Shown piece after piece: positions 31,973-63,387 of a stretch of 64,000 nucleotides of DNA (its first letter is position 1; every line of letters starts with the position of its first letter). This DNA is from Arenibacter aquaticus (GTDB lineage: Bacteria; Bacteroidota; Bacteroidia; Flavobacteriales; Flavobacteriaceae). Position numbers and translations under genes: made by a program. The stretch is from assembly GCF_003957295.1 (NCBI RefSeq), contig NZ_RQPJ01000003.1:565135-629134 (forward strand), in the 5' to 3' direction. Below the pieces are notes generated by a model, which made no database searches, was not told where the DNA came from, and saw nothing but the letters and a program-made list of their open reading frames with translations.

Positions 31973-32704
31973 TCATTGTTTAACTTTTCTATCCCCTGTA
32001 TGATCTACCCCTTTAGAACGTTCCAAGGAGATCATCGCCTTAGGCCTGAAATTCGTGATAATGGCCCGCCTGTTATCGTTGGTAGAGTTACCCCTACTGT
32101 AATGTAACGTACCTCCTTGGTGAAAAACACAAGATCCAGGAGACAATTCTATACATACAGAATTTTCCTCACTTCCCTCGCATTTAAGTGCCCCTTTGTT
32201 GCCAGTCTGCTCATGTTGTAAAATTTCTGAGAGGTGAGATTTTGGCGTATACCACATACAGCCATTCTCCTTATAGGCATGATCAATAGCCACCCAACAA
32301 CTTGCTGCCCTTTTATCGGGCATATTAATCCAATATGCCGCATCTTGATGCCATGGGGTTATAGTATTGGTATTAGGGGCCTTATTGATAAGCATATCAA
32401 AGTCCAGTGCAATATCATCACCCATTAGTTCTTGGGCCATTCTTAAAGATTTGATATGCAATACCTTTTCCAACATTTCCGGTACTATTTTACTCGGAAC
32501 CATAATTTGAGTTATGTTCTCCTTGGCGGCGTCATCGGATCCTGATAAATCTGACCGGTATTTTGAGGCATCAATTCTATTATCTAAAAATGAATCATAA
32601 AGATTACTATAGTAAGTGACCTCTGACTCATTCAACAAATTGTCAATGACCAGATATCCCTCTTCTTCAAAAAATGTTATTTGCTGTTTAGTTAATAATT
32701 TCAT
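31973..32704 (-). CDS. Phytanoyl-CoA dioxygenase (PhyH)-family Fe(II)/2-oxoglutarate oxygenase
   Basis: A 243-residue cytoplasmic protein without a signal peptide. The Fe(II) triad is visible: His and Asp in TPWHQDAAYWI, and the distal His in GGTLHYSRGN. The 2-oxoglutarate-binding Arg is in NDNRRAIITNFRP. Family knowledge: PhyH-type enzymes hydroxylate carbon positions, can demethylate or dehalogenate, and are abundant in marine bacteria. It lies between the DUF6067-like and GH89 genes of a polysaccharide locus, so it may modify a monosaccharide or its methyl ether after uptake. The substrate is unknown. This is the second oxygenase of the window besides the putative di-iron protein at 51772-53208. 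Confidence 0.88.
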   Translation of the reverse strand: MKLLTKQQITFFEEEGYLVIDNLLNESEVTYYSNLYDSFLDNRIDASKYRSDLSGSDDAAKENITQIMVPSKIVPEMLEKVLHIKSLRMAQELMGDDIALDFDMLINKAPNTNTITPWHQDAAYWINMPDKRAASCWVAIDHAYKENGCMWYTPKSHLSEILQHEQTGNKGALKCEGSEENSVCIELSPGSCVFHQGGTLHYSRGNSTNDNRRAIITNFRPKAMISLERSKGVDHTGDRKVKQ

Positions 32705-44280: not shown

Positions 44281-45536
44281 ATGGCTAAGGTCAGGTTGAT
44301 ATTGGACACCAGAAAATCGGCAAAAAGTTCGACCAATGGATTGTACCCAGTGGCCATCCGTCTATTTCACAAAAAAGCCAGAATCATTCGCCTTCCCTAT
44401 CACTGTTCAAAATTAGGATGGGACGACCGGTATATGCGTATGAAAAAGTCCGCTTTCAAAAATAGGCACATGGATTGTGACAAGGTCAACGAAAAAATGT
44501 ATGACCAACTGCATACGGCCCACAAGCTTATCACCGACATAGGAAATAGCATCAACTCCATTGATGTCGATACACTAGTCCAGTACATACATCAAGCTTG
44601 GGACAAAAAAGTGGATACCAAAATACGGAACGATGTAGATAACGGCATCACTTTGGGTGAGTGGGGAAAAGTGATCATCGACAGAAAACTTATGTCCAAC
44701 AAACCCAGTACCGCATGCTGGTATGCTGGGGCCATTAGGACAATCACCAAATTCAACAAGGGAAAAGACCTACGATTAAACCAGATAACCGTGACCTTTT
44801 TGACCAATTTCCAGATTTATCAGGAGGCGAAGGGCAACTCAAAAAACGGGGTAAGTTGCTATTTGAGAGCCATAAGGGCAGTATATAACAGCGCTATTAG
44901 AGAAGACCAATTTTACACGAAAAAAAACCCTTTTGACCATTTTAAAATACCTACCTCCAGACGAACCAAAAAAAAGGCCGTCGAAAAAGTCGATTTTATA
45001 AAAATCAGGGATGTACATTATGCCAAGGGCAGTCCCATATGGCATGCCAAAAATTATGCCCTGGTCATGTTCAACTGCAGGGGATGAATTTTGTTGATCT
45101 GGTAAAACTAAAGTTAAGTGACATATACCAAGACCGTATATTCTATGGTCGCAGTAAGACCGGTGACCAGTTATCCGTGCGGATAACCGAAGAGCTTTCG
45201 GAAATATTGGGCCATTATACCACGGGCAAAACAAAGGACGACTATTTGTTCCCTGCAAATTATGATGGAAGCACAAAGCATTATGAAAAATACAGGAGCC
45301 TTAGACGAAGGATGAACGGACATCTCAAGACCATTGCCAAAGATGCCGGTATAGAAGAGCACTTTACAACCTATACCATACGCCATTCCTGGGCCACCAT
45401 TGCCAAATATATAGGAATACCTACGGAGGTCATCAGCGAAGGACTTGGCCACAATTCCCTTAAAACGACCCAGATCTATTTACGGAGTTTCACCAACGAC
45501 GTTTTGGATGAGGCCAATGAGATGGTGGTTTGTTGA
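44281..45536 (+). pseudogene. Tyrosine recombinase (phage-type integrase) with a single-base frameshift
   Basis: Two consecutive frames make up one integrase of about 418 residues. The first (44281-45087) carries the Arm-DNA-binding domain (VRLILDTRKSAKSSTNGLYP, then VAIRLFHKKARIIRLPY) and the SAM-like core-binding domain, ending NYALVMFNCRG. The second continues GMNFVDLVKLKLSD and holds the catalytic Lys in YGRSKTGDQ, Arg-His in YTIRHSWAT, the His in GLGHNSLKTTQ and the nucleophile Tyr in IYLRSF. The family pattern CRGMNFxDL shows that one base, probably a G in the run at 45079-45082, has been lost. The canonical first His of the HxxR box is Tyr. The gene is inactive as read unless the shift is programmed or a sequencing error. 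Confidence 0.85.
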
Positions 45537-45781: not shown

Positions 45782-47524
45782 TTATTTATGGTTATTTAAA
45801 TACTTCTGAACTTCCATATGCGCCTTGTCGGCTTCTTCCCTAGTTCTAGTAAGTGGACTTTTGTCCCCAGCTACCACTGGTATTTCCAATTCTTCCCATG
45901 GCAAAACATTTGATTTTAGTGCCCAAGTTTCATAAATTCTTTCCATTCTTTTTACTTTTTCTGGGTAGGTTTGAGCCAGATCGTTTGTTTCTGTTCTATC
46001 CTCTTTTAAGTTATAAAGTTCCCATTCACCTTTTTCCCAAATAGAGACCAGCTTCCAGTCACCCAATCGGATCGCTTTGTTACCTTGATGCTCCCAAAAT
46101 AATGTATCCCTTATCTTCTCATCTTTATAGATAATCGGCAGTAAACTTTTACCATCCAATGGTCTAATTTTGTTATTATTGAACGATGTCGGATAGTTTG
46201 TTTCAGCCAATTCTAAACTTGTTGCCATGATATCAATAATATGTGCTGGCTGTTTTCTTAATTCGTTTTTACCAAGGATTCCTTTTGGCCAATGTACTAT
46301 TAACGGTGTGGCTATACCTCCTTCATGCATGTAGGTTTTGAATTTTTTAAAAGGAGTATTACTTAGGTTAGCCCACTTTAAACCATATCCTCCATATGTA
46401 TTTTCAGGCCCCAAGGCTACGCCGGGATAATCCCCAGACATAATAATTTCACCTCCCTCAGTATAAAGAGGAACATAATTCATTATACTCCATGGCTTGC
46501 CGGAGTTCCCTATCATCCCATTGATATGTTCCGTTTTATCACCTCCATTATCTGAAAGGAAAAATATAATAGTATTATCCAATTTATCTAGGTTTTTAAG
46601 TGCAGCTACCAAGGCCCCTACACCTTGATCCAAATGCTCGATAGTACCAGCATATGCCTCCATTCTTGATTGCTCCCAAAGTTTATGCTCCGCTTTTTCC
46701 CAAGCCACATTTTGTTCATCAATCTCTGGAAGTTTACATAAAGGATCGATTATTCCTTTGCTGATTAAATTTCTATATCGATCCTCTCTTAGTTTTTCCC
46801 AGCCCTTTTCAAATTTACCTTTATGCTTTGCAATAGCCTCCTTTCGAGCATGTAACGGCCAATGTGGCGCTGTATAGGCCATGTAAAGAAAAAAAGGCTT
46901 ATCAGCATCATTAGAACTTATATATTCTATTGATTTTTTAGTTATGGCTTCAGTATAATAAAAATCATCATAGGGCTCAACATAGGAATTGTCTTCCACC
47001 AAAGTTAAAGGGTCCCAATAGCTACCTGCGGCAATAAGTGTCCCATAAAATTGATCAAACCCCCTTTGCAGAGGCCAGTTATGCTTGGATTCATTTGGTT
47101 TAAAGTTATGATTAAGATGCCATTTGCCAGCCATATAAGTTTTATATCCCGACTGTCTCAATACTTCTGCGATTGTTACACATTCGTTATTAAGATCGGC
47201 ACGGTAGCCAGGTTTGCCATAATCTTGGGCTGTCATATAACCAAGCCCAGTTTTATGTGCATACAGCCCTGTCAGCAAACTGGCCCTACTTGGCACACAT
47301 CTGCCGGCATTATAGAATTGCGTAAACCTTAATCCGTTGTTTGCCAAGTCATCAATATTCGGAGTGTCAATTTCTCCTCCATAAGAACTTAAATCGGAAA
47401 AACCCATATCATCCGCCATGATGACTATAATATTGGGCCTAACCTCTTTTTTAGCCTCAATTTTATCTTTACAAGCACTAAGCACTAGTGAAAGTGCAAC
47501 AAGGGTCATGAATTTATTGATCAT
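45782..47524 (-). CDS. Lipoprotein sulfatase (formylglycine type, S1 family)
   Basis: A 580-residue arylsulfatase-type enzyme with lipobox LSAC (Cys18). The metal-binding NIIVIMADDMGFSD begins near residue 31 and the formylglycine motif is CVPSR at residues 76-80, followed by ASLLTG. Also visible are GKWHLN, a YMAYTAPHWPLHA substrate-side segment, FLSDNGGDKTEH with metal ligands, and EGGIATPLIVHWP. It closely resembles the arylsulfatase A-like group. It is the last gene of a - strand run with esterase, dehydrogenase, epimerase, reductase and putative di-iron protein. A palindrome resembling a GntR operator lies 14 bases before its start codon, so it may also have its own promoter. The sulfated substrate is unknown; sulfated aminosugar or sialic acid is suggested by context. 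Confidence 0.93.
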   Translation of the reverse strand: MINKFMTLVALSLVLSACKDKIEAKKEVRPNIIVIMADDMGFSDLSSYGGEIDTPNIDDLANNGLRFTQFYNAGRCVPSRASLLTGLYAHKTGLGYMTAQDYGKPGYRADLNNECVTIAEVLRQSGYKTYMAGKWHLNHNFKPNESKHNWPLQRGFDQFYGTLIAAGSYWDPLTLVEDNSYVEPYDDFYYTEAITKKSIEYISSNDADKPFFLYMAYTAPHWPLHARKEAIAKHKGKFEKGWEKLREDRYRNLISKGIIDPLCKLPEIDEQNVAWEKAEHKLWEQSRMEAYAGTIEHLDQGVGALVAALKNLDKLDNTIIFFLSDNGGDKTEHINGMIGNSGKPWSIMNYVPLYTEGGEIIMSGDYPGVALGPENTYGGYGLKWANLSNTPFKKFKTYMHEGGIATPLIVHWPKGILGKNELRKQPAHIIDIMATSLELAETNYPTSFNNNKIRPLDGKSLLPIIYKDEKIRDTLFWEHQGNKAIRLGDWKLVSIWEKGEWELYNLKEDRTETNDLAQTYPEKVKRMERIYETWALKSNVLPWEELEIPVVAGDKSPLTRTREEADKAHMEVQKYLNNHK

Positions 47525-47555: not shown

Positions 47556-48416
47556 CTAGTTAAAAATTCCTGTATTGCAAATAAATTTTATTTTACAATA
47601 CCCCAACACCATCCACCTGGGAATTATAATCGAGATGCAAAAAAAAATCAATGACCTAATTATATTTTCTTTCCAATATTTAGCGTCATGTCCTCCTTTA
47701 AACTCCTCATAATTATGGTTTATACCATATTCCCCCAAACTATTATGCAACTTTCTATTATGATGTATTAATGAATCATCAACACCACAGTCAAAGCGAA
47801 AAGAAGTCAGTTTATCCTTATATTTCAATAGGTAGTCAATTACAGCTTCATCCCTATTATTTTTATAATAAGGATTCACATCATCTATATATAATTTAAA
47901 TCCTTCAAAATTTGTAATAGAGGAATGGCCAGAAAAGGCACTAAAAACATTAGAATACTTTGCGCCAATACGTAAGGCTCCATAGCCTCCCATCGATAGT
48001 CCTGAGATATACCATTTAGAATTGTCCCCGATTTGGGTTATTACTCGACTTACCGCTTCTATGACGTCCTCGGCTATCCATTTTTCAAAATCAAAACCAG
48101 AATGAGCAAGATAACCGCTCCCGTCCCCCCATAATCCATCTGAAGGCATTACAAGAACCATTGGAGGCAATTCTCCTTTCTCTATAAGATCAAGAGCAAT
48201 ATTATGGACATTCATATGTCTAGTCCATGCCCAATGGCTAGCATATACACCATGCAGCAATATTGCCACTGGCAAATCCGAAATTTGCTTATTTCCTGGC
48301 GGAACAAAGACAGTGATATCTGCCCTCCCTTTTAGATAAGAACTTTGAACCGTTAAATACCTTAAGTTCTCAACCTCGTGTTTAGGATCGGAAACACTTA
48401 TTTCTCTAATAATCAT
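47556..48416 (-). CDS. Esterase D/FrmB-like alpha/beta hydrolase
   Basis: A 286-residue cytoplasmic serine hydrolase. Oxyanion-hole region LPVAILLHGVYASHWAW, nucleophile elbow GLSMGGYG and acid/base residues in FDCGVDDSL and FKGGHDAKYWKE are all present. This is the family of putative esterases that includes esterase D, S-formylglutathione hydrolase (FrmB) and tributyrin esterase. The last 27 residues (after RSLIFF) look unnatural. A nine-T run on the coding strand (47639-47647) precedes them, and one T fewer would end the protein at 47624 as ...FFASRL. It is directly next to the zinc alcohol dehydrogenase gene (15-base gap). I infer either removal of an acyl group from a sugar or hydrolysis of a formyl-thiol made by that dehydrogenase. 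Confidence 0.82.
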   Translation of the reverse strand: MIIREISVSDPKHEVENLRYLTVQSSYLKGRADITVFVPPGNKQISDLPVAILLHGVYASHWAWTRHMNVHNIALDLIEKGELPPMVLVMPSDGLWGDGSGYLAHSGFDFEKWIAEDVIEAVSRVITQIGDNSKWYISGLSMGGYGALRIGAKYSNVFSAFSGHSSITNFEGFKLYIDDVNPYYKNNRDEAVIDYLLKYKDKLTSFRFDCGVDDSLIHHNRKLHNSLGEYGINHNYEEFKGGHDAKYWKENIIRSLIFFCISIIIPRWMVLGYCKIKFICNTGIFN

Positions 48417-48431
48417 ATAGTATATTTTTCA

Positions 48432-49547
48432 TTAAAATAAAATTACACCCTTGGCATTTTTATCTGAAAGCATATCACTAAAAGCATTTTCTAAATTATT
48501 AGGAGTATAGGTTTGTGTTATCATTTTATCCAGCAACAACGATCCCTTTTCATAATAATCCAAAAGCATAGGAAAATCTCTATTAGGTCTGCATTTACCA
48601 TATAACGGATTAATATAGATTTTATCCCACTCAAACAAGTTCATATCAAATTTAATTTCCTCTTCGATCCCACTTACCTGTACAGCCATGCCTCCATTTC
48701 GAATCATAGCCAATGGTGCAGTACCCAAAGACGACACACCAGTACATTCAAAGGAATAGTCCGCTCCCCTATTTTCAGTTAGCTTCTTCACCTGAATGGC
48801 CGAATTCAACAATCCAACATCCATTTTTTCGGCTATAATAGTATGAGTGGCACCGTAAGCTTTACTCATTTTCAACCGCTCCTCATTAATATCAATTGCA
48901 ATAATCTTCGCCGCTCCAGATATTCTTGCTCCTTGAATTACATATAAGCCTACACCCCCAGTTCCCAAGACCGCAACAGTTGAACCCTTTGTGACTTTGG
49001 CTACATTTATGACAGAACCAACACCGGTCATCACACCACAGCCCATTATACTAGCTACCTCAAAAGGGATTATATTAGGTGTTGGAAACACGGCCGCCTC
49101 TTTAACAATGGTGTGGGTGGACATTGTACCTAAGTTAAAAGAACTCTGAACTCCCTTGTTTTTATAAAGGGTACTTTCTAAAGACACGTGCCCCATATTA
49201 GGTTTACCTTGTCCTATAACTGGAGACTGTAACTCGCAAATACTTTCACTTCCATTCTTACATTGAAAACAACTCCCACAAGGAATCGCCCAATTTAAAA
49301 TCACCTGATCTCCAGGTTTGGTGGTTTTTACATTATTTTCAACAGCCAAAACAACTCCGGCACCTTCGTGTCCCATGATCATTTGTTGTCCCCAATTGGT
49401 ATAAGAATCGTAATCAGTATGGCATACTCCTGCAGCTTTTATCTCCACAAGGACTTCATCATTTTTCGGCAGTCTAACTTCAATATCCTCCAAGGAAAAT
49501 GTTCCTTTGCCGTTAGCAATTATAGCTTTAGCTTTTATCATTGTCAT
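48432..49547 (-). CDS. Zinc-dependent alcohol dehydrogenase (class III-like)
   Basis: A 371-residue medium-chain dehydrogenase. The catalytic zinc ligands are Cys in GVCHTDYDS, His-Glu in MGHEGAG and Cys in IMGCGVMTGVGS. The structural zinc site has the four Cys of CGSCFQCKNGSESIC. The Rossmann motif is VLGTGGVGLYVIQGA. The segment SFNLGTMSTHTIVKEAAV is shared with class III/formaldehyde-type and related enzymes. It would oxidise an alcohol or a thiol-formaldehyde adduct with NAD. Placed between an esterase-D-like hydrolase and the epimerase, and downstream of an oxygenase pair, it fits formaldehyde disposal after oxidative demethylation, or oxidation of a sugar alcohol. It overlaps the epimerase gene by 20 bases. 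Confidence 0.9.
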   Translation of the reverse strand: MTMIKAKAIIANGKGTFSLEDIEVRLPKNDEVLVEIKAAGVCHTDYDSYTNWGQQMIMGHEGAGVVLAVENNVKTTKPGDQVILNWAIPCGSCFQCKNGSESICELQSPVIGQGKPNMGHVSLESTLYKNKGVQSSFNLGTMSTHTIVKEAAVFPTPNIIPFEVASIMGCGVMTGVGSVINVAKVTKGSTVAVLGTGGVGLYVIQGARISGAAKIIAIDINEERLKMSKAYGATHTIIAEKMDVGLLNSAIQVKKLTENRGADYSFECTGVSSLGTAPLAMIRNGGMAVQVSGIEEEIKFDMNLFEWDKIYINPLYGKCRPNRDFPMLLDYYEKGSLLLDKMITQTYTPNNLENAFSDMLSDKNAKGVILF

Positions 49548-50700
49548 GTTCTATTTTTTCTAATGTTTTCCAGCATTCAAATAGAGACCTAGGCAAGTGG
49601 TAGCAACCTTTAAAACTCCCTTTTAAGTCCAATAACACCTCACCCCTCCTATTTAAATAACCATACCATTCCCCAAATTCTGGATCCGGAAAATATTTCC
49701 AAGTGTAAGTATGTACTTTTTCAAACCAGAACCACACATCGGCTCTTTTTGTGTGGTGAAACGCTTTCAATAAAGCAATAAGGGCTTCGTTATGGACCCA
49801 CCACAATTTTTGGTCCCAATCCAATTTCCATTGCATAGGCTTGTTTTTCCAGTCCATAAAATAGTAGATACCTCCAAATCGATCATCCCAGCTGTAGGAT
49901 AGCATTTTAATGGTAATATCTGTAGCTTTTTCAATGGTATTAATATCATTTGTTTGAGCTGCCAAATCTATGACCATCCACATGGATTCGACAGCATGAC
50001 CTGGTACGATCAATCTTCCATCTACTGTATCCGGATGACTCCCATCTGGTGCCACATTTTCAAAAAATAACTCTAATGTTTCATCATAATGATGCGTTAG
50101 CAAATTATGGATACTATTGCTTTTTAAACTGACGATCTTTTCATCATCCAAAACACCTTCCATTTCCAGTGCCATATTAGCGTCCAGCATAAGTTTCCCC
50201 ATACAATTCATTGGACGGAAACCTGTTTCCTTATTAAAAACATGTTTTGGGTTACTCCATCTTTTTTCAATCCGGTCATAAACCTCTCTAGCCAAAGTTT
50301 TATACTTGGCATTTCTTGATGCTTTGTAATATTGAGAAAAACCCAAAGCGGCAAAACAATCCGAATAGATGTTAGATGGTTTTTTCAAGGCGTTCCCTTT
50401 TTGATCAAAGGAAAAATAAAATTTTCTATCCTCGTCCATGCCATTTTCTACTAAAAACTCAGCTCCAGACATGGCAATTTCCAACCACTCAGGTTTTTTT
50501 TCAACTTCGTTGTAGAGCTTGCTGTAAGTCCAGACTTGCCTTCCAATAGGCCAGGCATATTTATCAGTATCAAATACATTTCCTTTGCGATCTAATGATG
50601 TTAAATAGCCCCCATGAACTTTGTCTAACGAATATCTGGACCAGAACGGAATAACATCCTCGAGCAATCCGTTTTTATACTGGTTTATTAACTCTTTCAT
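49528..50700 (-). CDS. AGE-family epimerase (N-acylglucosamine 2-epimerase-like)
   Basis: A 390-residue cytoplasmic (alpha/alpha)6-barrel protein. Conserved family residues appear in HGGYLTSLDRKGNV, KYAWPIGRQVWTYSKLYNEV, IVPGHAVESMWMVIDLA, KLWWVHNEALIALLKAF, GEWYGYLNRRGEV and GCYHLPRSLFEC, including the two catalytic His positions. AGE (renin-binding protein-like) enzymes interconvert ManNAc and GlcNAc; relatives act on mannose or cellobiose. N-acetylneuraminate lyase, encoded 4 kb away, makes ManNAc, so a ManNAc 2-epimerase role completes that route. It overlaps the dehydrogenase gene and starts 10 bases after the reductase gene ends, so the run is one operon. Confidence 0.88.
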   Translation of the reverse strand: MKELINQYKNGLLEDVIPFWSRYSLDKVHGGYLTSLDRKGNVFDTDKYAWPIGRQVWTYSKLYNEVEKKPEWLEIAMSGAEFLVENGMDEDRKFYFSFDQKGNALKKPSNIYSDCFAALGFSQYYKASRNAKYKTLAREVYDRIEKRWSNPKHVFNKETGFRPMNCMGKLMLDANMALEMEGVLDDEKIVSLKSNSIHNLLTHHYDETLELFFENVAPDGSHPDTVDGRLIVPGHAVESMWMVIDLAAQTNDINTIEKATDITIKMLSYSWDDRFGGIYYFMDWKNKPMQWKLDWDQKLWWVHNEALIALLKAFHHTKRADVWFWFEKVHTYTWKYFPDPEFGEWYGYLNRRGEVLLDLKGSFKGCYHLPRSLFECWKTLEKIEHDNDKS

Positions 50701-50710
50701 ATGCTGTCAT

Positions 50711-51766
50711 TTAAATTTTCAATTTCAAGGCCCCTTTGGGTTTACAACTACAGGGCAAGCATGTACCAGGGTCTGGCTGAATCATGGTTGCATGATTATA
50801 ACTTACCTCCCCTGCTACAATTTCGGTTAAACATGTACCACAATCCCCGAAGAGACAACCAACGTCGATATCAATATCATGGGCCTCGGCCAACTCTTCA
50901 AGCGAATTATATTCAGGGCCCCATTCAACAGTTCTCCCAGAGACTGTAAATGTTACGACTATCGGCTTCTCTTTAGAGCCTTCATCCGATAAAGCCGAAT
51001 ATGAAACACTGGCGGGACCAAATGATTCTGTTTTAATACTATCATCAGATATCCCTTCTAATTGCAATGATGCGGTAATATAATCCATCATCATAGGCGG
51101 CCCACAAACGTAAAAATCAAAGGAAGTATGTCTAAGTTTGCTTTTTATAAAATCTATATCGACAAAACCAAAATAATCATAATCCAACCCCAATTGATCT
51201 GAGGGCAAGGGATTAGAATAACAAACAAAGATCTGAATATTACTGTTTTCTTTATTTAGGCTTTCTAAGTGGAACTTAAAGATATGATCGCTACTATTAG
51301 TGATGCCAAAAAAAAATATAACATTCTGCTTACTTTTAGATTCCACTATTGCATTGACCATACTGAGCAATGGGGTAATCCCAATACCACCAGCAATAAG
51401 TACAATTGGCTTTTGTTCATTGGAGTTCAAGAAAAAATCGCCCATTGGACCTTTTGCCTCCAAAATATCCCCTTCCCGAATGACCTCATGAAGTAATGTT
51501 GAAGCCTTACCTGAAGGTATCTTTTCCCTAGTATCGAGAGCCAATTCTTTTTTTACGGATATTCTATAGTAATCCTTTCCAGGCGCTTCAGAAAAGCTAT
51601 AAAACCGTTGAATATAGTGTCTTTGACCCTCTGGTTTAATTTTAAACAAGAGATGTTGCCCGGGTTTAAAAGGGGCAAGGGGTTCATTCTTTTCCAAACG
51701 CAAGTACAACGAGGAGACAAGTTCGCTCTCATGAACCTTTTTAAATACTTTATATCTTTTTTGCAT
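50711..51766 (-). CDS. FNR-type oxygenase reductase with C-terminal [2Fe-2S] ferredoxin domain
   Basis: A 351-residue electron-transfer protein of PaaE-like layout. The FAD domain has RFYSFSEAPGKDYYRISVKK and the flavin/phosphate segment with KGPMGDFFL. The NAD(P)H domain has LIAGGIGITPLLSM, FFFGITNSSD and FYVCGPPMMMDYI. The C-terminal plant-type ferredoxin has Cys-x4-Cys-x2-Cys in CLFGDCGTC and the last ligand in TCLPCSC. Reductases built like this feed electrons to di-iron oxygenases, Rieske oxygenases and P450s. The putative di-iron protein gene ends 5 bases upstream of its start, so the two are almost certainly partners. Confidence 0.93.
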   Translation of the reverse strand: MQKRYKVFKKVHESELVSSLYLRLEKNEPLAPFKPGQHLLFKIKPEGQRHYIQRFYSFSEAPGKDYYRISVKKELALDTREKIPSGKASTLLHEVIREGDILEAKGPMGDFFLNSNEQKPIVLIAGGIGITPLLSMVNAIVESKSKQNVIFFFGITNSSDHIFKFHLESLNKENSNIQIFVCYSNPLPSDQLGLDYDYFGFVDIDFIKSKLRHTSFDFYVCGPPMMMDYITASLQLEGISDDSIKTESFGPASVSYSALSDEGSKEKPIVVTFTVSGRTVEWGPEYNSLEELAEAHDIDIDVGCLFGDCGTCLTEIVAGEVSYNHATMIQPDPGTCLPCSCKPKGALKLKI

Positions 51767-51771
51767 TGAAC

Positions 51772-53208
51772 CTAATTGTTTTTAACCTTTTTTTGATCTG
51801 CACGGGCATCTTCATAACTCACATTGTATGCTAAAACTTTTGGATCGGGTACAACCCCCATTCTCTCACAGGTATCCGAGTATACTTTTGGCCACCAATT
51901 TTGGTGATCCGTCAGTCCCTCCTCTTTCCATTTCTCCCAATCTTCATAAGCCTTGTCCCAAGCTTGACTTCCAAATTCCATAGTCTGATTTTGCCCCCCG
52001 ATTTCTGGAACTATCCAATCACGGCCTATTTTGGTGTGCAGTACTTCATCAGCCCAGTCATAATCCTGAATCAATTTTGCTAGATTACTTTCCGTTGCCA
52101 AAGCTACTTCCCATTCATACTGCTTACCGGTCTTGGCAGGCATTAATCCTTGTTCTATATAGAATAATATAGCATGTCTTTCTATGGGGCTGCACTTTGT
52201 ATTTAGTTGATATGACCAATTCCAAGTGATAGGAATTTTAGTCCAATCGATTCCCATGGATATAAAACCAAGTTCCCCCATCATGGCATGTCTGGTCTCA
52301 TCCCACAATTGACGAATCATATCTTTGTAATAATCCCATGGTTTATCCTTTGTTTCTTCTATAATACTCGCCATCATTTCTGGAACGTCTATCTCCCGCA
52401 GTCTCTTGAAATATAACATTATCAGTTTAGGAAAGGGTGGTTGTTCCTTATCCAACAAGAACGCTTCTGCGTTGACCCTCATGTTGTATCTATCCAAAAA
52501 GCGTTCATCACGTTGCGGAATTGGGTCGTATTTATATGGTATTTTAGAAAAATGAGGTATTATTTTTTGGCTCGATTGAGTTTTTGTCCCATCCAAGTCT
52601 CCACAATTTTCCAAACATTGATCTAAGAGTGTCATCCAAGTTGATAATTCATTTCGATGGATTTCGTTGACCAAACAACCTATTGCTTTTCTTCCGTAAT
52701 GTTGAATATCCTTCATTTCTAAGAGAGCAAACCTTAAAACTCGATAAGTTGGATGTTCAAAAAGCGTGTTGATTTGTTCAAGACTGTTTTCTAGGCCTCT
52801 AACCAAGGCTGGTATTGCCTTCTCATATAACCCTACAATTAAAGATTCGGTTGATGGTGCACATTGAATTTCATCCAGAAATAAATCTAGATTTTCATCT
52901 GGTGCTATATCCAGTCCAAAAGGTGGCTCTCTCATTTCACGAACCCTCCCATGAATTGAATTAACGTGTTCAGCACATAAATGAGCGTGAAGACCAAATG
53001 CCATTTTTAACTCATAAACTGGCATTGCTGTAATTCTATTGGTGAATATAAGGGACAATCTTTTTAAGGTCCAATGATATCTTTTTAATTGATTAACACT
53101 TTTTTCCGCGGTTTGGCCTTTAACCATGGCATCGTCAACACTTAGCATATTAACAAAAGGAGGCAGACCTTTATACCCCACATAGGAATTAATGTCAGAT
53201 TTATTCAT
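51772..53208 (-). CDS. Ferritin-like, putative di-iron oxygenase (unassigned family)
   Basis: A 478-residue soluble, mostly helical protein without signal peptide. I do not recognise a named family. Candidate carboxylate/His metal ligands occur in helices: AEH at 79-81, E164..D167-IQ-H170, E304-TR-H307 (LWDETRHAMMGE) and E388-VL-H391 (WADEVLHTKIG). ExxH pairs in separate helices are the hallmark of ferritin-like di-iron proteins, such as BoxB- and PaaA-type oxygenases. Its gene is followed after 5 bases by a PaaE-like reductase, which supports an oxygenase that needs reducing equivalents. It is the first gene of the operon that also encodes an AGE epimerase, a zinc dehydrogenase, an esterase and a sulfatase. 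I infer hydroxylation or O-demethylation of a sugar or aminosugar; the substrate is not known. Confidence 0.65.
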   Translation of the reverse strand: MNKSDINSYVGYKGLPPFVNMLSVDDAMVKGQTAEKSVNQLKRYHWTLKRLSLIFTNRITAMPVYELKMAFGLHAHLCAEHVNSIHGRVREMREPPFGLDIAPDENLDLFLDEIQCAPSTESLIVGLYEKAIPALVRGLENSLEQINTLFEHPTYRVLRFALLEMKDIQHYGRKAIGCLVNEIHRNELSTWMTLLDQCLENCGDLDGTKTQSSQKIIPHFSKIPYKYDPIPQRDERFLDRYNMRVNAEAFLLDKEQPPFPKLIMLYFKRLREIDVPEMMASIIEETKDKPWDYYKDMIRQLWDETRHAMMGELGFISMGIDWTKIPITWNWSYQLNTKCSPIERHAILFYIEQGLMPAKTGKQYEWEVALATESNLAKLIQDYDWADEVLHTKIGRDWIVPEIGGQNQTMEFGSQAWDKAYEDWEKWKEEGLTDHQNWWPKVYSDTCERMGVVPDPKVLAYNVSYEDARADQKKVKNN

Positions 53209-53290
53209 AACTGTAAATTATAAAGATTATAGGGCCAAAGTTCTTTAATGGAAATCGGTTTTAGGTTTCCTATATTGGGTAATAATTCCA

Positions 53291-53310
53291 CTATATTTCT
53301 AAAAATATAG
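53291..53310. promoter_or_regulatory. Perfect inverted repeat CTATATTT-N4-AAATATAG in a divergent promoter region
   Basis: Eight-base arms with a four-base centre, located in the 226-base gap between the putative di-iron protein gene (- strand) and the AraC gene (+ strand). It is a plausible operator for divergent control. A TATATTTG box (53331-53338), pointing toward the AraC gene, lies 20 bases to its right. Confidence 0.45.
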
Positions 53311-53434
53311 CTTCATTCCAAAAACTTAGATATATTTGATGACTTTATGCGCTGTCTTAGCATAATCAAACTTTGAAAAATCATTAGTTTTTGGACGTTT
53401 CAAGCTTTAGCTTATATTATAATTTTCTTATACT

Positions 53435-54292
53435 ATGAAGCCAGTATTTCAGAAATTGACCCCATCCCATGAGGTACCTTTTTTATTAAACAAATTAGAA
53501 TTACCACGATTTGATTCATCATACCATTTCCACCCAGAGATTGAGCTCACCTATATTTTGGAGAGCAAGGGCAGACGTATGGTTGGCAACAGTATTAGCA
53601 GCTACAAAGCGGGAGATTTGATTTTATTGGGCAAAAACACACCTCACTCATGGTTCGATTCTCCAGAAAGCAAAGGAAAGAGAAGTGCAATTGTAATACA
53701 GTTCGACGAGAATTTTCTTGGCCCAACATTTTTCAATAGAACTGGGTTTACACATTTACTTACAATGATGAACGATGCGCAAAGAGGTATCGTTCTAAAG
53801 GGAGGCTCACGAAAACATATTGCCAAAAAGATAGAAGAACTTTTTGAGTTAAATTCCTTTGGAAGAGTACTCTCTCTACTTACCATTTTAGACCACATTG
53901 AAAGAACCAAAGAAAAAGAATTTCTAAATAAAGAAGGATATAAAGCTAATTTCAACAAAAAAGATTGCAACAGAATCAGTGCAATTTGCCAATTTGTGGC
54001 CCAGAACTATTCTAAAGAAATTAAACTAGAATATATAGCAAAAGAAATTGGAAAACTTACGGTTTCGGCATTTTGTAATTATTTTAAATCCAAAATGAAC
54101 CGAACTTTTACCGAGTTTGTAAATGAAATAAGGATTGAAGAAGCGAAAAAAATGATTATTGAATCAAATAATGATATTTCTGAAATAGCTTATAGTTGTG
54201 GCTATCAGAGTAAATCTAATTTTTACAAACAATTTCTTAAATTTAACGGGATTTCACCACTCCACTACCGTAAAAAAATGAGATTAGACTAA
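53435..54292 (+). CDS. AraC-family regulator with N-terminal cupin domain
   Basis: A 285-residue regulator. The first about 110 residues form a cupin (SSYHFHPEIELTYILESKGR, GDLILLGKNTPHSW), which usually binds a sugar. The C-terminal two helix-turn-helix motifs are at about 185-280 (EIKLEYIAKEIGKLTVSAFC, NYFKSKMNRTFTEFVNEIRI, then DISEIAYSCGYQSKSNFYKQ). It is transcribed away from the oxygenase/reductase operon and toward the nanA cluster, so it could activate either or both. It resembles regulators of the RhaS/XylS type in size and layout. The effector is unknown. Confidence 0.9.
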   Translation: MKPVFQKLTPSHEVPFLLNKLELPRFDSSYHFHPEIELTYILESKGRRMVGNSISSYKAGDLILLGKNTPHSWFDSPESKGKRSAIVIQFDENFLGPTFFNRTGFTHLLTMMNDAQRGIVLKGGSRKHIAKKIEELFELNSFGRVLSLLTILDHIERTKEKEFLNKEGYKANFNKKDCNRISAICQFVAQNYSKEIKLEYIAKEIGKLTVSAFCNYFKSKMNRTFTEFVNEIRIEEAKKMIIESNNDISEIAYSCGYQSKSNFYKQFLKFNGISPLHYRKKMRLD

Positions 54293-54531: not shown

Positions 54532-55434
54532 ATGAAAGGACTTATAGCAGCAACCTATGCTCCAATGCACCTAGATGGTTCGCTAAATTTGAAGATTATT
54601 CCCCAATATGCAAAATTCCTAATTACCAATAAGGTTAAAGGTGCATTTATTAATGGTTCCACAGGAGACTTTGCCTCCTTGTCGGTAGCCGAAAGAAAAA
54701 AGATTACAAGTGTTTGGGGTGAAAATAAATCCTCGGATTTTTTTGTAATTGATCATGTAGGACATACTAGCCTTAACGAGGCCAAGGAATTGGCCAGATT
54801 TGCAGCGGATAAGGTGGACGGAATTGCTGTCTTGGCCCCTTACTACTTCAGGCTGAACAATATTGATAAATTGGTAGAATACTGCAAGCAAGTAGCAGCA
54901 TGCGCTCCAAATACGCCATTTTATTATTACCACATTCCTATACTTACAGGTGCCAATTTCAATATGGTAGAATTTCTTGAGCTAGCGACCGGACAAATTC
55001 CAAATTTAGCCGGAATAAAGTTTACCAATAACAATTTAATTGATTATAAGTATTCTAAGGAGTTTAATAATGGTTCTGCAAATATACTTTTCGGATTCGA
55101 TGAAATTTTTCTAGCCAGTTTGCCATTTGGGGCAGATGGTTGGGTTGGAAGCACATACAATCATTTGGCTCCATTATATTCATCAATTATTAATGCATTT
55201 AACAACAATGAACACAAGCTGGCTGCAGAACTTCAGCAAAAATCCATGGAATTTGTGGATATCCTAAACAACAAAGGTGGATTTAACGGCACAGCAAAAT
55301 CATTTATGAAGGTGTTGGGGTTAGATCTAGGTCCAAGTAGATTTCCTCACACTACACTAACAGATGCTCAAATAGAGGAGGCCAAAACCGAAATGAATGC
55401 ATTGGGGATTACTTCTTATTTGAGCAAAATATAA
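54532..55434 (+). CDS. nanA: N-acetylneuraminate lyase
   Basis: A 300-residue class I aldolase of the DapA/NanA family. The start GLIAATYAPMHLDGSLN is NanA-like, NGSTGDFASLS holds the GST carboxylate-binding loop, YYYHIPILTG contains the catalytic Tyr (133) and GIKFTNNN the Schiff-base Lys (163). FGFDEIFLASLPFGADGWVG and GSTYN are further conserved. The YYYHIP form, rather than the YN.P of dihydrodipicolinate synthase, supports sialic acid lyase. It cleaves N-acetylneuraminate to pyruvate and ManNAc in the cytoplasm. It heads a + strand cluster with sialidases and sialate esterases. The next steps would be the AGE epimerase at 49528-50700 and a kinase not present here. Confidence 0.93.
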   Translation: MKGLIAATYAPMHLDGSLNLKIIPQYAKFLITNKVKGAFINGSTGDFASLSVAERKKITSVWGENKSSDFFVIDHVGHTSLNEAKELARFAADKVDGIAVLAPYYFRLNNIDKLVEYCKQVAACAPNTPFYYYHIPILTGANFNMVEFLELATGQIPNLAGIKFTNNNLIDYKYSKEFNNGSANILFGFDEIFLASLPFGADGWVGSTYNHLAPLYSSIINAFNNNEHKLAAELQQKSMEFVDILNNKGGFNGTAKSFMKVLGLDLGPSRFPHTTLTDAQIEEAKTEMNALGITSYLSKI

Positions 55435-55501: not shown

Positions 55502-57574
55502 ATGAGCAAAATAATTTATTTACTATCTCTTTTCTTTACTTTTTCTATTCAAGGACAAAGTATAAAAGTTGCCTGTGTAGGGAATAGTGTCACCTACGGT
55601 TCTCAGGTAAAGGAAAGGGAGTCCAACTCATATCCCGCTCAATTGCAAGAAATGTTGGGCAATGAGTATGAGGTAATTAATTTTGGATATCCAGGAGCAA
55701 CAGTACTAAAAAACGGACATAAACCATATTGGAACAATTCTATATTCAAGAGATCCAAATCTTTTGAACCAAATCTAGTCATTATTCACCTAGGACTTAA
55801 TGATCAAGGGAATAATAATTGGCCGGAGCATAAAGAAGACTTTATTTCGGATTATTTAGACTTGATTGAAAAGTATAGAAGCCTTTCCTCTTTGCCTGAA
55901 ATAATTATCTGTAAATTATCACCTTCCTTTTCTGGTCATCATTGGTTTGAAGAGGGGATGCGGGAAAACTACAAAGAAATCCAAGCCAAAATTGATACAA
56001 TAGGAGTGCTAGCAGGTGTTGATATCATTGATTTACAAAATCCCTTATACCATTTCCCAGAATTTTATGCAGATGACCTTCATCCCGCCAAGGAAGGCGC
56101 CACTGTTATCGCCAATAAAATATATCAATTTATAAGCGGAAATTATGGAGGCCTAAAGCTTCCCATGTTATATGGGGAGAACATGGTATTCCAAAGAAAT
56201 GTACCCTTGATTATAAATGGCACAGCTAACGCTCTAGACGAAATAACAGTACGTTTTAATGGGGAGACCATACGAACAAAAGTATCAAAGCACGGGCAAT
56301 GGAAGGTAACATATCCTGCGAAGGGGGCTGGCGGACCTTATAAACTTTCGATAAGGTCCACATACTCTGGAGACGTCAATATTACCAACGTCTATATAGG
56401 TGAGGTATGGCTTGCTTCCGGACAGTCCAATATGGACTTTAAGTTAAGTAAGTCACTTCATGGACGGTCAGTTATAAAAGACTCCTTAAACTCCAATATC
56501 TTTTTATTTTCAATGGATGGAAAAGCCCACCCGTCTAACCATGTGTTTTCTTTAGAAGACTTGACGAACTGTAATGCTTCGAATTATTTTCAACCTTCAG
56601 GATGGAGTAATAAGCCTGATGCAGTAATGAAAAACTTTTCAGCTATAGCATATTCTTTTGCTTATAATCTTCAGAAAGAATTAAAGGTCCCTGTTGGAAT
56701 CGTATGTAATGCTGTAGGTGGATCTACTACCCAGAGTTGGATAAGTAGAGAAGCCATGGAAACAACACATCAAACTATAAGTCTACTAAATGACACGCAT
56801 CTAAACCCCCTGGTACATCCCTGGGTTTCCAATCGAAAAGCTATAAATTTATCTAAAATGAGGGATTTTGGTGTAAAGGCCAGGCATCCATTTGATCCTA
56901 CCATGTTGTTTGACGCAGGCATTGCTCCCATTAAAGACTTTCCTATAAAGGGAGTAATCTGGTATCAAGGAGAATCAAATGCGGAGAGGCATGAATTGCA
57001 TTCAAAATTATTTAAAATGATGGTAACTGATTGGCGAGATAAATGGAATACCCCTCACCTGTCTTTCAACTATGTACAATTAAGCAGTATAAATAGACCA
57101 AATTGGGGCAAATTTAGAGATTCGCAACGGAAATTGTTATCCATTCCCAATACCGGAATGGCTGTATCTTTAGATGTGGGGCATCCTACTGATGTACATC
57201 CAAAAAAAAAGTGGATAGTAGGTAAACGTTTGTCCAGAATCGCCTTGGCAAAAGATTATGGTTTAAACACCCCCTATTCTGGACCTATGTTGGACTTTGT
57301 GAATGTGAGAAATAGCGTTTTGGAAATTCATTTTACCCACGCAAACGGTTTAACGACCAATGATGGAAAGGCTGTTCGAGATATAGAAATTGCTGGTGCC
57401 GACAAAGTGTTTGTAAAGGCTGAAAACCAAATTAACAATGATATTATAGAGGTGTGGAATAAGGTCGTTGAGAAACCAAGGTATGTTAGGTATGGCTATA
57501 GTTCCTATACTGATGGAAATTTGGTCAATAAAGATGGGTTCCCTGCGTCCACTTTCTCCAATTTGGTAGATTAG
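55502..57574 (+). CDS. SGNH hydrolase fused to sialate O-acetylesterase domain
   Basis: A 690-residue exported enzyme (signal peptide ending FSIQGQ) with two esterase domains. Residues about 20-215 are an SGNH hydrolase: nucleophile in CVGNSVTYGS, Gly/Asn in HLGLNDQ and Asp-His in DDLHPAKEG. From about 220 on, a sialate O-acetylesterase (SASA) type domain follows, with LASGQSNMDF (nucleophile Ser), GGSTTQSWIS, GVIWYQGESNA and DVGHPTDVHPKKK (Asp/His). Both probably remove O-acetyl groups, so the protein may handle more than one acetyl position or substrate. Its position after nanA and before two sialidases makes O-acetylated sialic acid the likely target. Confidence 0.9.
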   Translation: MSKIIYLLSLFFTFSIQGQSIKVACVGNSVTYGSQVKERESNSYPAQLQEMLGNEYEVINFGYPGATVLKNGHKPYWNNSIFKRSKSFEPNLVIIHLGLNDQGNNNWPEHKEDFISDYLDLIEKYRSLSSLPEIIICKLSPSFSGHHWFEEGMRENYKEIQAKIDTIGVLAGVDIIDLQNPLYHFPEFYADDLHPAKEGATVIANKIYQFISGNYGGLKLPMLYGENMVFQRNVPLIINGTANALDEITVRFNGETIRTKVSKHGQWKVTYPAKGAGGPYKLSIRSTYSGDVNITNVYIGEVWLASGQSNMDFKLSKSLHGRSVIKDSLNSNIFLFSMDGKAHPSNHVFSLEDLTNCNASNYFQPSGWSNKPDAVMKNFSAIAYSFAYNLQKELKVPVGIVCNAVGGSTTQSWISREAMETTHQTISLLNDTHLNPLVHPWVSNRKAINLSKMRDFGVKARHPFDPTMLFDAGIAPIKDFPIKGVIWYQGESNAERHELHSKLFKMMVTDWRDKWNTPHLSFNYVQLSSINRPNWGKFRDSQRKLLSIPNTGMAVSLDVGHPTDVHPKKKWIVGKRLSRIALAKDYGLNTPYSGPMLDFVNVRNSVLEIHFTHANGLTTNDGKAVRDIEIAGADKVFVKAENQINNDIIEVWNKVVEKPRYVRYGYSSYTDGNLVNKDGFPASTFSNLVD

Positions 57575-58371: not shown

Positions 58372-59946
58372 ATGAAAAAACAAGTTAGTTTATTTACCGC
58401 CTATTGTATTATAGCAATAGTTTTATTGTCGTGTGCAGAAAAAAAAGACTCACAACAGGTTAATATTTCCTATGAGGCTAATCAACCCGTAAGACCTGTA
58501 CTTACCCTAAAGGATAAGAACAAAGTTGTTCAAATTAAATTGAACGTTCCAAATGAAGCTTCAAACCTAACGGTAACCTCTATGGACTTTAGTTTAGAAG
58601 GAACAACTAACCTGAAAGATATTACAGATATAGAAATATTCTCTTCGTTTATGGAGCCTCGATTTGAGACAGGAACCAAATTTGGAACAAGTAAACAAAT
58701 CTCATACAAGATTAAGATAGATGGACATCAACCATTACAAACCGGGGACAATTATTTCTGGTTGTCAATGGCATTACAGGATAGTGTTAATTTATCCAAT
58801 AAAATTAGTGCAAAAAGCATATCTATTACTTTGGCCAACGGGCAAGTACTCAAACCTAATAAAGATAGACAACAAACTGCACAAAGAATAGGTGTCGCAT
58901 TAAGACAACACAATCAGGATAACGTGGATACGTATCGAATTCCGGGCTTGGTAACTACTAACAAAGGAACTTTGATTGCAGTTTATGACAACCGATATAA
59001 CGGAAGTGTTGACTTGCAGGCAGACGTAGACGTAGGTATGAGCCGCAGTACAGACGGAGGTACTACATGGGAACCAATGCAAGTAATTATGGATATGGGT
59101 GAATATGGGGGTAAACCGCAAGATGAAAATGGAATTGGTGATCCATCCATTCTTGTAGATAGAAATACCGGAACTATATGGGTGGCAGCAGTATGGGCCC
59201 ATGGACATCCAGGAAAACGAAATTGGCATGCATCAAAACCAGGCATGACTCCAGAAGAAACCAGTCAATTTGTTTTGGTGAAAAGCGAAGATGACGGCCT
59301 TACATGGTCCCCCCCTATTAATATCACATCACAGATAAAAAAGCCAGAATGGCAACTATTATTGCAGGGGCCCGGTAAAGGAATAACTATGAAGGACGGG
59401 ACCTTGGTATTTCCTGCTCAGTTTAAAGATAAAGATAGGATGCCACACTCTACAATAATCTATAGCAAAGACGCTGGTCGTTCATGGAAAATTGGCACAG
59501 GCGCAAGGTCCAATACTACAGAAGCTCAGGTGGTACAACTGGATGACGAAAGCTTAATGATAAATATGCGCGATAACCGTGGAGGATCCAGAGCTGTGGC
59601 TATAACAAAGGATTTAGGAAAAACCTGGGAAGACCATATTTCCTCTAGAAGTGCTCTTATTGAACCAGTATGCATGGCAAGCTTAATCAGTTTTAATCAT
59701 TCTGATAAAGGAAAATTACTTTTCTTTTTCAATCCCAATAATAAGAGGTACAGAAAGAATATGACCTTAAAAACAAGTTTCGACCAGGGCATTACCTGGC
59801 CAGTGAACAATCAATTGGAACTATTTGAAGACTCTTGTTATGGATATTCCTGTATGACGGTAATTGACGATAATCACATCGGAATTTTATACGAAGGAAA
59901 AAAGGAATTATACTTTGAAAAGGTAAATTTAAACGAATTGTTTTAA
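58372..59946 (+). CDS. Exo-alpha-sialidase (GH33-type) with N-terminal beta domain
   Basis: A 524-residue lipoprotein (lipobox VLLSC). An N-terminal beta-sandwich (about 25-165) precedes a six-bladed sialidase propeller. The first catalytic Arg is in the RIP motif of TYRIPGLVTT. Five Asp-box repeats are visible (STDGGTTW, EDDGLTW, KDAGRSW, KDLGKTW, FDQGITW). The Glu/Arg region is TEAQVVQLDDESLMINMRDN, and the nucleophile Tyr lies in DSCYGYSCMTVI with ILYEG following. It releases terminal sialic acids at the cell surface or periplasm. It is followed after 1 base by a sulfatase gene. A second sialidase is encoded at 62248-63387. Confidence 0.93.
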   Translation: MKKQVSLFTAYCIIAIVLLSCAEKKDSQQVNISYEANQPVRPVLTLKDKNKVVQIKLNVPNEASNLTVTSMDFSLEGTTNLKDITDIEIFSSFMEPRFETGTKFGTSKQISYKIKIDGHQPLQTGDNYFWLSMALQDSVNLSNKISAKSISITLANGQVLKPNKDRQQTAQRIGVALRQHNQDNVDTYRIPGLVTTNKGTLIAVYDNRYNGSVDLQADVDVGMSRSTDGGTTWEPMQVIMDMGEYGGKPQDENGIGDPSILVDRNTGTIWVAAVWAHGHPGKRNWHASKPGMTPEETSQFVLVKSEDDGLTWSPPINITSQIKKPEWQLLLQGPGKGITMKDGTLVFPAQFKDKDRMPHSTIIYSKDAGRSWKIGTGARSNTTEAQVVQLDDESLMINMRDNRGGSRAVAITKDLGKTWEDHISSRSALIEPVCMASLISFNHSDKGKLLFFFNPNNKRYRKNMTLKTSFDQGITWPVNNQLELFEDSCYGYSCMTVIDDNHIGILYEGKKELYFEKVNLNELF

Positions 59947-62247: not shown

Positions 62248-63387
62248 ATGAAAAAAACTATTATTGGACTATTATTAATTACAGGGTCTTTCGCAATGGC
62301 TCAAAAAAAGGTACATCAAATTGCCGAAGGCGTTAAGGTGCATCAAGACCTATTCAATTCAACAATGGCGGAAGGGGTCGCCTGCTACAGGATACCAGCA
62401 ATTGTAACAGCCCCTAATGGAGATGTCATTGCGGCCATAGATGAAAGGGTTCCTTCTTGTGGTGATCTTAAATATAGTAAAGATATTAATATCGTGATCA
62501 GAAGAAGTAGTGATAACGGAAAAACATGGACGCCAATTGAAACAGTGGTGGATCTCCCATTCGGTAAATCGGTATCTGATCCTTCAATTATTGTAGACGA
62601 AGATACTAAAGAAATATTCATGTTTTACAATTATATGGATTTGGAAAACGAACGCGATATCTATTACTTCCATATGGTAAAAAGTTCTGACAACGGTAAG
62701 ACTTGGAGCCAACCACAAGACATTACAAAACAGATTGCTAAAGAAGAATGGAAAAATGATTTTAAATTTATAACCTCTGGACGAGGAATTCAAACTAGCT
62801 CAGGAAAATTATTACATACTATGGTAAATCTAAATAATGGATTACATCTCTTTGCAAGTGATGACCATGGAAAATCATGGTATTTAATAGATACTCCAAT
62901 TAAACCGGCAAATGAATCCAAAGTAGTGGAATTAGCCGATGGAAGATGGATGATCAACTCTAGAGTGAACAAAAGCGGGATGCGATATACCCATATCTCC
63001 AATGACGAAGGAAAAACATGGACAACTTCTCCAGAACCAGAACTAATAGATCCTGGCTGTAATGGCAGTATAATAAGGTACACCTCCATTGAGCAAGGGT
63101 TTAAAAAAAATAGATTACTCTTTTCAAATGCAAAAATGGAAAAAGGAAGAAAGAACATGACCGTTCGAATTAGCTATGATGAAGGTACAACTTGGTCAAA
63201 AGGTAAAACTATTTATACCGGGGGTTCGGCTTATTCTTCTTTGACCGTTTTAGAGAATGGGGATATCGGATTGTTCTTTGAAAAAGATGGCTATAAAGAG
63301 AATCCATTTGTAAGTTTCTCTTTAAAATGGCTGACCGATGGTGATGATAAATGGAGAAAACCCTCATCAAAACAAAAAGGACATTAG
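62248..63387 (+). CDS. Exo-alpha-sialidase (GH33-type)
   Basis: A 379-residue exported sialidase with a short signal peptide (ending SFAMAQ) and no extra N-terminal domain. The RIP motif is in CYRIPAIVTAPNGD. Asp boxes are SSDNGKTW (twice), DDHGKSW, NDEGKTW and YDEGTTW. Catalytic regions: ESKVVELADGRWMINSRV (Glu), RKNMTVRISYDEG (Arg) and GGSAYSSLTVLENGDIGLFFE (Tyr nucleophile with its Glu). It is about as long as compact bacterial sialidases. It differs from the lipoprotein sialidase encoded at 58372-59946, so the two may divide the work by location or linkage. It ends the + strand cluster, 86 bases before a convergent AraC gene. Confidence 0.93.
   Translation: MKKTIIGLLLITGSFAMAQKKVHQIAEGVKVHQDLFNSTMAEGVACYRIPAIVTAPNGDVIAAIDERVPSCGDLKYSKDINIVIRRSSDNGKTWTPIETVVDLPFGKSVSDPSIIVDEDTKEIFMFYNYMDLENERDIYYFHMVKSSDNGKTWSQPQDITKQIAKEEWKNDFKFITSGRGIQTSSGKLLHTMVNLNNGLHLFASDDHGKSWYLIDTPIKPANESKVVELADGRWMINSRVNKSGMRYTHISNDEGKTWTTSPEPELIDPGCNGSIIRYTSIEQGFKKNRLLFSNAKMEKGRKNMTVRISYDEGTTWSKGKTIYTGGSAYSSLTVLENGDIGLFFEKDGYKENPFVSFSLKWLTDGDDKWRKPSSKQKGH

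Follow-up and report, generated by a model that had tools for sequence, protein, structure and literature searches.

A stretch of 64,000 nucleotides from Arenibacter aquaticus (contig NZ_RQPJ01000003.1, positions 565,135 to 629,134 of the forward strand; here called the window, in whose coordinates positions are given) carries five open reading frames (ORFs) on its minus strand at 47556-53208, just as a preliminary description of the same DNA had reported. From the upstream end, they encode a putative di-iron oxygenase of two helical bundles (OXY; 51772..53208; a 478-amino-acid [aa] ORF), an FNR-type reductase with a C-terminal [2Fe-2S] ferredoxin domain (RED; 50711..51766; 351 aa), an N-acylglucosamine 2-epimerase-like protein (AGE; 49528..50700; 390 aa; PF07221), a relative of the dehydrogenases FoADH and ZoADH (ADH; 48432..49547; 371 aa; ADH_N and ADH_zinc_N domains), and an esterase (EST; 47556..48416; 286 aa; PF00756). 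The genes follow each other at spacings of 5, 10, -20, and 15 bp, RED beginning 5 bp past OXY. Most likely, this operon is a variant form of sugar O-demethylation with OXY as its putative enzyme.

The OXY family and its reductase

Pfam searches with OXY recovered a single match at E ≤1, to DUF455 (PF04305; residues 278 to 399; E = 0.0058), which at 16.7 bits stays under the gathering cut-off of 34.3; the same weak similarity is seen in 73 of 76 members of the OXY family. The PaaA/PaaC and BoxB models gave no match (Pfam, E ≤1; NCBIfam, E ≤0.1), and PDB searches with OXY, by single sequence as well as by profile, returned nothing credible. The preliminary description's label of an unassigned ferritin-like protein therefore fits, and membership in the BoxB, PaaA/PaaC, and DUF455 families, against which it had suggested profile checks, is rejected by score. 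Judged from its sequence, OXY is a member of a conserved family lying below the Pfam cut-offs, and one that is widespread, as one genome scan confirmed 262 of its 273 pattern matches. A link of DUF455 to ferritin-like proteins was not found in the open-license literature.

The structure model of OXY (predicted local distance difference test score, 93.6) consists of two helical bundles. Six residues, E277, E304, H307, E352, E388, and H391, are invariant in 76/76 members, and in the model of the C-terminal domain all six lie on the four helices of that bundle in the order E, ExxH, E, ExxH. Such an arrangement on the four helices of one bundle is the canonical ferritin-like di-iron carboxylate pattern. 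Among six aligned remote relatives, five of the six ligands are kept in column in every case, and E352 is in column in two and shifted one column later in four. The structure prediction proposed in the preliminary description thus did place a di-iron pattern in OXY, within the C-terminal bundle; the single two-metal center that it had built from both bundles does not hold, as E80 (75/76; D in one) and E164 (72/76; D in four) belong to the N-terminal bundle. Its ligand list was right for E304, H307, E388, and H391 but missed E277 and E352 and included H170, which lacks conservation; of the 76 members, 42 have D at position 167 and 31 have E. We regard OXY as a probable di-iron enzyme, its metal content being predicted from the model and the conserved ligands. 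Candidate fold neighbors of the model include aldehyde-deformylating oxygenase, VlmB azoxy synthase, HrmI, toluene 4-monooxygenase, and PaaA/PaaC, in listings where the absence of another fold proves nothing.

The N-terminal bundle (residues 30 to 180; window 52669-53121), which has no ExxH pair, shows conservation of its own: K68, R88, and E91 are kept in 76/76 members and 6/6 remote relatives, and E66 is kept in 76/76 and 5/6, respectively. Docking, substrate, or structure are candidate roles for it. Internal duplication as the source of the two bundles was considered and is not borne out, their profiles giving no match (hhalign probability, 0.2).

RED has the Pfam domain order FAD_binding_6, NAD_binding_1, and Fer2, the same as PaaE and GbcB, with a ferredoxin-type C304-x4-C309-x2-C312 motif. 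It aligns with PaaE over 33-345 at 107.5 bits (cut-off, 420.8) and resembles GbcB over its full length at 108 bits (cut-off, 500), and its FNR part alone is nearest to flavohemoglobin reductase domains. In both PaaA/PaaC with PaaE and BoxB with BoxA, a ferritin-like di-iron oxygenase is served by an FNR-ferredoxin reductase, an arrangement that OXY and RED share; however, OXY matches neither family by sequence, holds both bundles in one chain, and lies in an operon without coenzyme A (CoA) genes. The glycine betaine monooxygenase GbcA/GbcB carries out an oxidative demethylation that releases one carbon, but the partner of the reductase there, GbcA, is a Rieske protein, in contrast to the di-iron-type OXY.

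ADH and EST beside three types of oxygenase

The key evidence for reading the operon in terms of demethylation is ADH. Its best PDB matches are 8h2a (496 bits; E = 5e-148) and 8h2b (460 bits; E = 6e-137), separated by a gap of >280 bits from the next entry (176 bits). These two structures are FoADH and ZoADH, according to PMC10033563, which describes a P450, its redox partners, an esterase, and ADH grouped in a number of marine genera, among them Polaribacter, Maribacter, and Arenibacter, and a ZoADH gene knock-out with growth impaired on 6-O-methyl-galactose and not on galactose. Among solved structures, EST is closest to a putative esterase and to feruloyl esterases; it falls in one cluster with the esterases of all 33 Flavobacteriaceae ADH loci, and S141, D214, and H243, invariant in 33/33, would form its catalytic triad. 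The C-terminal tail of the window EST (286 aa) differs from that of its relatives in L002 and L003 (263 aa), a divergence that comes after the conserved S, D, and H. Because ADH and EST belong to the families that lie beside the 6-O-methyl-galactose P450, the case for demethylation is stronger than gene content alone would make it, and the preliminary description's view that a di-iron enzyme with its reductase replaces the P450 in such a module appears sound.

Beyond these two families, the P450 module of marine Flavobacteriia, which acts on 6-O-methyl-D-galactose, mostly shares with the window a nearby AraC regulator and a sugar/sulfatase context. It differs in its oxygenase, a P450 unrelated to the di-iron-type OXY, in having a separate ferredoxin and Pyr_redox_2 reductase where OXY loci have a fused FNR-ferredoxin or a lone ferredoxin, and in its substrate, the sugar of the window probably being a different one. 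The window has the FoADH/ZoADH-type ADH and the neighboring esterase of the same family but not the P450, none being found within about 9.5 kb on either side of its ADH. The same contig does carry a P450 cluster (L160) about 100 kb before the window, and that cluster includes an ADH and an EST of its own.

Genome searches with ADH (E ≤1e-90) recovered it in 32/299 Flavobacteriaceae, 5/247 Acidobacteriota, 8/288 Verrucomicrobiota, and 9/296 Bacteroidota genomes, the last set sharing part of its genomes with the first. We read 54 ADH loci, seeking oxygenases within about 9.5 kb; EST was present in 53 and not found at L202. For an unbiased count we set aside the window (L162) and L191 to L195, where OXY was known beforehand, and L188, a 99.9% copy of L192. 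The remaining 47 loci have a P450 in 25 cases, PhyH alone in 10, OXY in 1 (L196, which lies at the end of a contig), and none of these in 11; L159 combines P450 with PhyH, and L196 combines OXY with a weak PhyH match. At all 33 Flavobacteriaceae loci ADH and EST are adjacent or one gene apart, accompanied by P450, ferredoxin, and reductase in 22 (one with PhyH), PhyH alone in 6, none in 4, and OXY with RED in 1, the window. The PhyH calls reach the Pfam cut-off at all ten PhyH-only loci and L159; the P450 calls were made by Pfam for L160 and L197 and by motif and profile for the others. At the Verrucomicrobiota locus L197 (6228-9160), the gene after the P450 beside ADH and EST encodes a 594-aa reductase (flavodoxin + FAD + NAD), which replaces the ferredoxin and reductase pair of the usual P450 loci.

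The PhyH loci have the same ADH and EST as the window but a PhyH-type dioxygenase without a reductase in place of OXY and RED, and these PhyH genes may represent a third sugar demethylase class; no function for them beside ADH and EST was found in the open-license literature. They comprise L130, L132, L138, L144, L147 (6.4 kb off), L148, L189, L201, L202, and L207, with the proteins of L189, L201, L202, and L207 forming a distant subgroup (53 to 73 bits against the profile of the remaining ones). An altronate-dehydratase-like gene of one cluster (Pfam on L144 only) in L138, L144, L147, and L148 resembles sugar-acid catabolism. Elsewhere in the window, a PhyH-family gene (31973-32704, minus strand; PF05721, E = 3e-32) lies between GH123 and NAGLU genes and is a distant relative (86 bits) by the ADH-locus PhyH profile. 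In another genome of the same genus (G404; L231, 8147-10340), PhyH is directly 3' of a BNR sialidase-like gene, ADH and EST being elsewhere in the genome.

In a quick tree of 58 ADHs and 2 outgroup rows, the P450, PhyH, and di-iron labels need at least nine changes. The P450 locus L197 groups with the di-iron loci L195 and L196 (99), the long-branched PhyH locus L189 groups with the di-iron Acidobacteriota (99), and the closest neighbor of the flavobacterial di-iron group is the PhyH locus L130 (91, below the star). With its NanA-like, SASA, and BNR genes, which the window shares, and its GH20 and glucosamine-6-phosphate isomerase-domain genes, L130 points to a similar sialic-acid setting in which PhyH stands where the window has OXY and RED. 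The 12 ADH-bearing genomes without a nearby oxygenase (the above 11 and that of L193), to which the following figures are confined, were also searched whole: OXY was recovered in G734 and G860, P450 relatives in G154 and G158 (70%) and in G1015 (44%), and PhyH at 70 to 81% in G404, G547, G678, G644, G158, and G734, while G190 and G1067 gave no oxygenase and G1207 only a weak PhyH.

The converse survey covered 80 OXY loci, which have ADH nearby in 9, an esterase in 10, an AraC gene in 14, and a P450 or PhyH profile match of >100 bits in none. RED or a lone ferredoxin of 86 to 88 aa flanks OXY in 10/80. All 10 are within one clade of 21 rows in a quick tree of OXY (79 rows; SH-aLRT for the clade, 100). 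Fifteen rows, counting the window, have ADH, EST, or RED in their vicinity, and 14 of them belong to this clade; the fifteenth (L069) is in a neighboring four-row clade. In the clade that includes the window protein, ADH and EST recur across three phyla. The linked loci L006, L010, L013, and L069 have no adjacent reductase, and 58 orphan rows, many of them on short contigs, have no partner nearby. Sugar genes among the OXY neighbors include RhaA with an FGGY kinase (L041), GH94 (L044), GH1 (L069), and GH127, alpha-amylase, and GH2 (L008). Since these contexts differ between loci, ADH and EST would not be tied to one particular sugar, and their target should be the one-carbon unit common to demethylations.

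Among 247 Acidobacteriota genomes, a control set that includes partly related or preselected genomes, OXY (E ≤1e-100) was found in four (G730, G731, G829, and G860), all of which have ADH, as against 1 of the 243 without OXY (G951, with PhyH at that ADH). The Fisher test gives p = 3e-8 for all genomes and 1e-4 without G730 (the center) and G731 (which was known beforehand); leaving out G829 as well, whose locus nearly duplicates that of G731, gives 0.008. More than 1 Mb separates OXY from ADH in G860, whose OXY is on a long branch of the OXY tree, and the two genes are on different contigs in Mucilaginibacter hurinus (G734).

Remote OXY-like proteins (L095, 3757-7421; L097, 328-3072) occur near GH38 mannosidase genes, with a pfkB sugar kinase in L095, and this is another sugar context for the OXY superfamily. 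The OXY proteins of L062, L049, L059, and L079, from metagenome-assembled genomes titled Klebsiella pneumoniae or Akkermansia muciniphila, group with L053 (Verrucomicrobia) or L048 (Pedosphaera), and those titles are probably wrong or loose.

Genomic surroundings and the likely sugar

As a sulfatase gene (45782..47524, minus strand) starts 31 bp past EST, the operon may extend beyond five genes, with the sulfatase possibly the last. On the other side, a 226-bp intergenic region (53209..53434), within which the promoters are expected, separates OXY from a divergent AraC-family regulator (53435..54292, plus strand; N-terminal part cupin-like, below the Pfam cut-off), the likely controller of the operon. 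Farther along the plus strand lie genes for a NanA-like lyase (54532..55434; PF00701), a GDSL + SASA protein of the sialic-acid acetylesterase type (55502..57574; Pfam), a BNR sialidase-like protein with a BNR-neuraminidase N-terminal domain (58372..59946), and a second BNR sialidase-like protein (62248..63387). NAGLU, GH123, two GH95, and SusC/D genes are farther away in the region.

An O-methylated sialic acid is the substrate suggested by the sialidase-, NanA-, and AGE-like genes, and the window sugar is most likely such a compound, or ManNAc or GlcNAc made from one; 8-O-methyl-N-acetylneuraminic acid has been reported in starfish gangliosides (PMC3509529). The preliminary description had drawn a sialic acid or aminosugar from AGE and nanA. 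The sialic-acid genes do stand as local context, but AGE is not part of the core: at all loci read, it is confined to flavobacterial ones (the window's own genome, L002, L003, and L093), and we therefore rejected it as a means of fixing the substrate class. AGE passes the PF07221 cut-off (210.7 against 23.4 bits) and falls short of that of NF052547 (505.1 against 600), with 6f04 and 2gz6 as its best solved relatives; the NanA-like lyase similarly scores 160 and 130 bits where the NCBIfam cut-offs for NanA are 281 and 382, respectively.

Close to the operon end, at 44281-45536 on the plus strand, the halves of an integrase (Phage_int_SAM_5, then Phage_integrase) are on two overlapping ORFs, apparently broken, which fits gene transfer. 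Within the genus of the window, 2 of 18 genomes carry OXY, and this rarity likewise suggests transfer or loss.

Proposed reaction and its alternatives

We consider it probable that OXY and RED are an NAD(P)H-driven di-iron monooxygenase for oxidative sugar O-demethylation that replaces the P450, with ADH and EST processing the one-carbon unit. What speaks for this is the gene order, the conserved ligands, the predicted fold, the ADH and EST families common to P450 clusters, and the genome co-occurrence. Electrons would pass from the FAD and [2Fe-2S] domains of RED to the di-iron site in the C-terminal bundle of OXY, where O2 would be activated and the methyl group of an O-methylated sugar hydroxylated in the cytoplasm. 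The O-CH3 group would thereby become an O-CH2OH hemiacetal, giving the free sugar and a one-carbon unit, and ADH and EST, as the constant part of the module, would handle that unit, by our proposal while it is bound to the sugar. For the P450 module, demethylation itself and the requirement for ADH are reported in PMC10033563.

Explanations differ on the step of ADH and EST. The preliminary description had formaldehyde removed through a thiol adduct: OXY and RED would free it, and ADH and EST would clear it by way of a carrier thiol, like FrmA/FrmB with glutathione, a version that agrees with the demethylation by OXY and RED proposed above. We hold this to be doubtful. The scores of ADH against the mycothiol-dependent (TIGR03451; 231.9 bits) and glutathione-dependent (TIGR02818; 213.9 bits) formaldehyde dehydrogenases, the place of EST in PF00756, and the recurrence of the pair with oxygenases across differing sugar contexts, which should mean a shared one-carbon product, favor it. 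However, these scores miss the curated cut-offs of thiol-dependent formaldehyde oxidation (FrmA/FrmB, MscR) by far (512.9 and 543.95, respectively, and 22.9 against 281.7 for EST in TIGR02821). Moreover, according to PMC10033563, FoADH and ZoADH are inactive on formaldehyde with glutathione, mycothiol, bacillithiol, cysteine, CoA, ergothioneine, or aromatic thiols, as well as with formaldehyde and with intact 6-O-methyl-galactose, so that a carrier other than the thiols tried would be needed. Tentatively, ADH may instead oxidize the sugar-O-CH2OH hemiacetal to a formate ester and EST hydrolyze this to formate and sugar, sparing formaldehyde, whether the oxygenase is a P450, PhyH-type, or di-iron enzyme. 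Such a route would explain the inactivity of FoADH and ZoADH with thiols, formaldehyde, and the intact methylated sugar, the need for ADH on the methylated sugar only, and the likeness of EST to O-ester hydrolases. Two points weigh against it. Such hemiacetals fall apart spontaneously. The ADH active site is also described as narrow in PMC10033563, whose authors deem it unsuited to sugars.

That ADH merely recycles NADH for the oxygenase while EST trims another ester is very improbable. The P450 and OXY systems do require reducing power, but the same pair adjoins PhyH-type dioxygenases, which are 2-oxoglutarate dependent and should need no NADH; the idea is both raised and doubted in PMC10033563. 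Alternatively, OXY might attack a different part of the sugar, such as a C-H bond or the N-acyl group, as a di-iron hydroxylase, desaturase, or N-oxygenase, and resemble the P450 module in accessory genes only. The varied chemistry of the di-iron enzymes among its fold neighbors, and the fact that most family members lack ADH and EST, are in keeping with this, but the recurrence of the pair across three phyla in the OXY clade of the window and the interchange of OXY, P450, and PhyH on the ADH tree make it rather unlikely. Hardly credible is a ferritin-like protein of storage or stress without oxygenase activity, given the canonical ligands in the C-terminal bundle, the reductase or ferredoxin that follows OXY in several operons, and the association with ADH and EST.

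The P450 system, for which PMC10033563 and PMC8360166 came up, is the one route of oxidative sugar demethylation found described in the open-license literature, where titles and the beginnings of abstracts gave nothing relevant on di-iron or ferritin-like sugar O-demethylation, which may be in print elsewhere. If sugar O-demethylation by OXY and RED is true, the widespread OXY family would have its first function, one assigned to the clade linked to ADH. The question of the ADH role left open in PMC10033563 then becomes testable, the same ADH and EST being found beside three oxygenase types, one of them presumably NADH-free. Should the hemiacetal route also be true, the sugar itself would play the part that glutathione plays in FrmA/FrmB.

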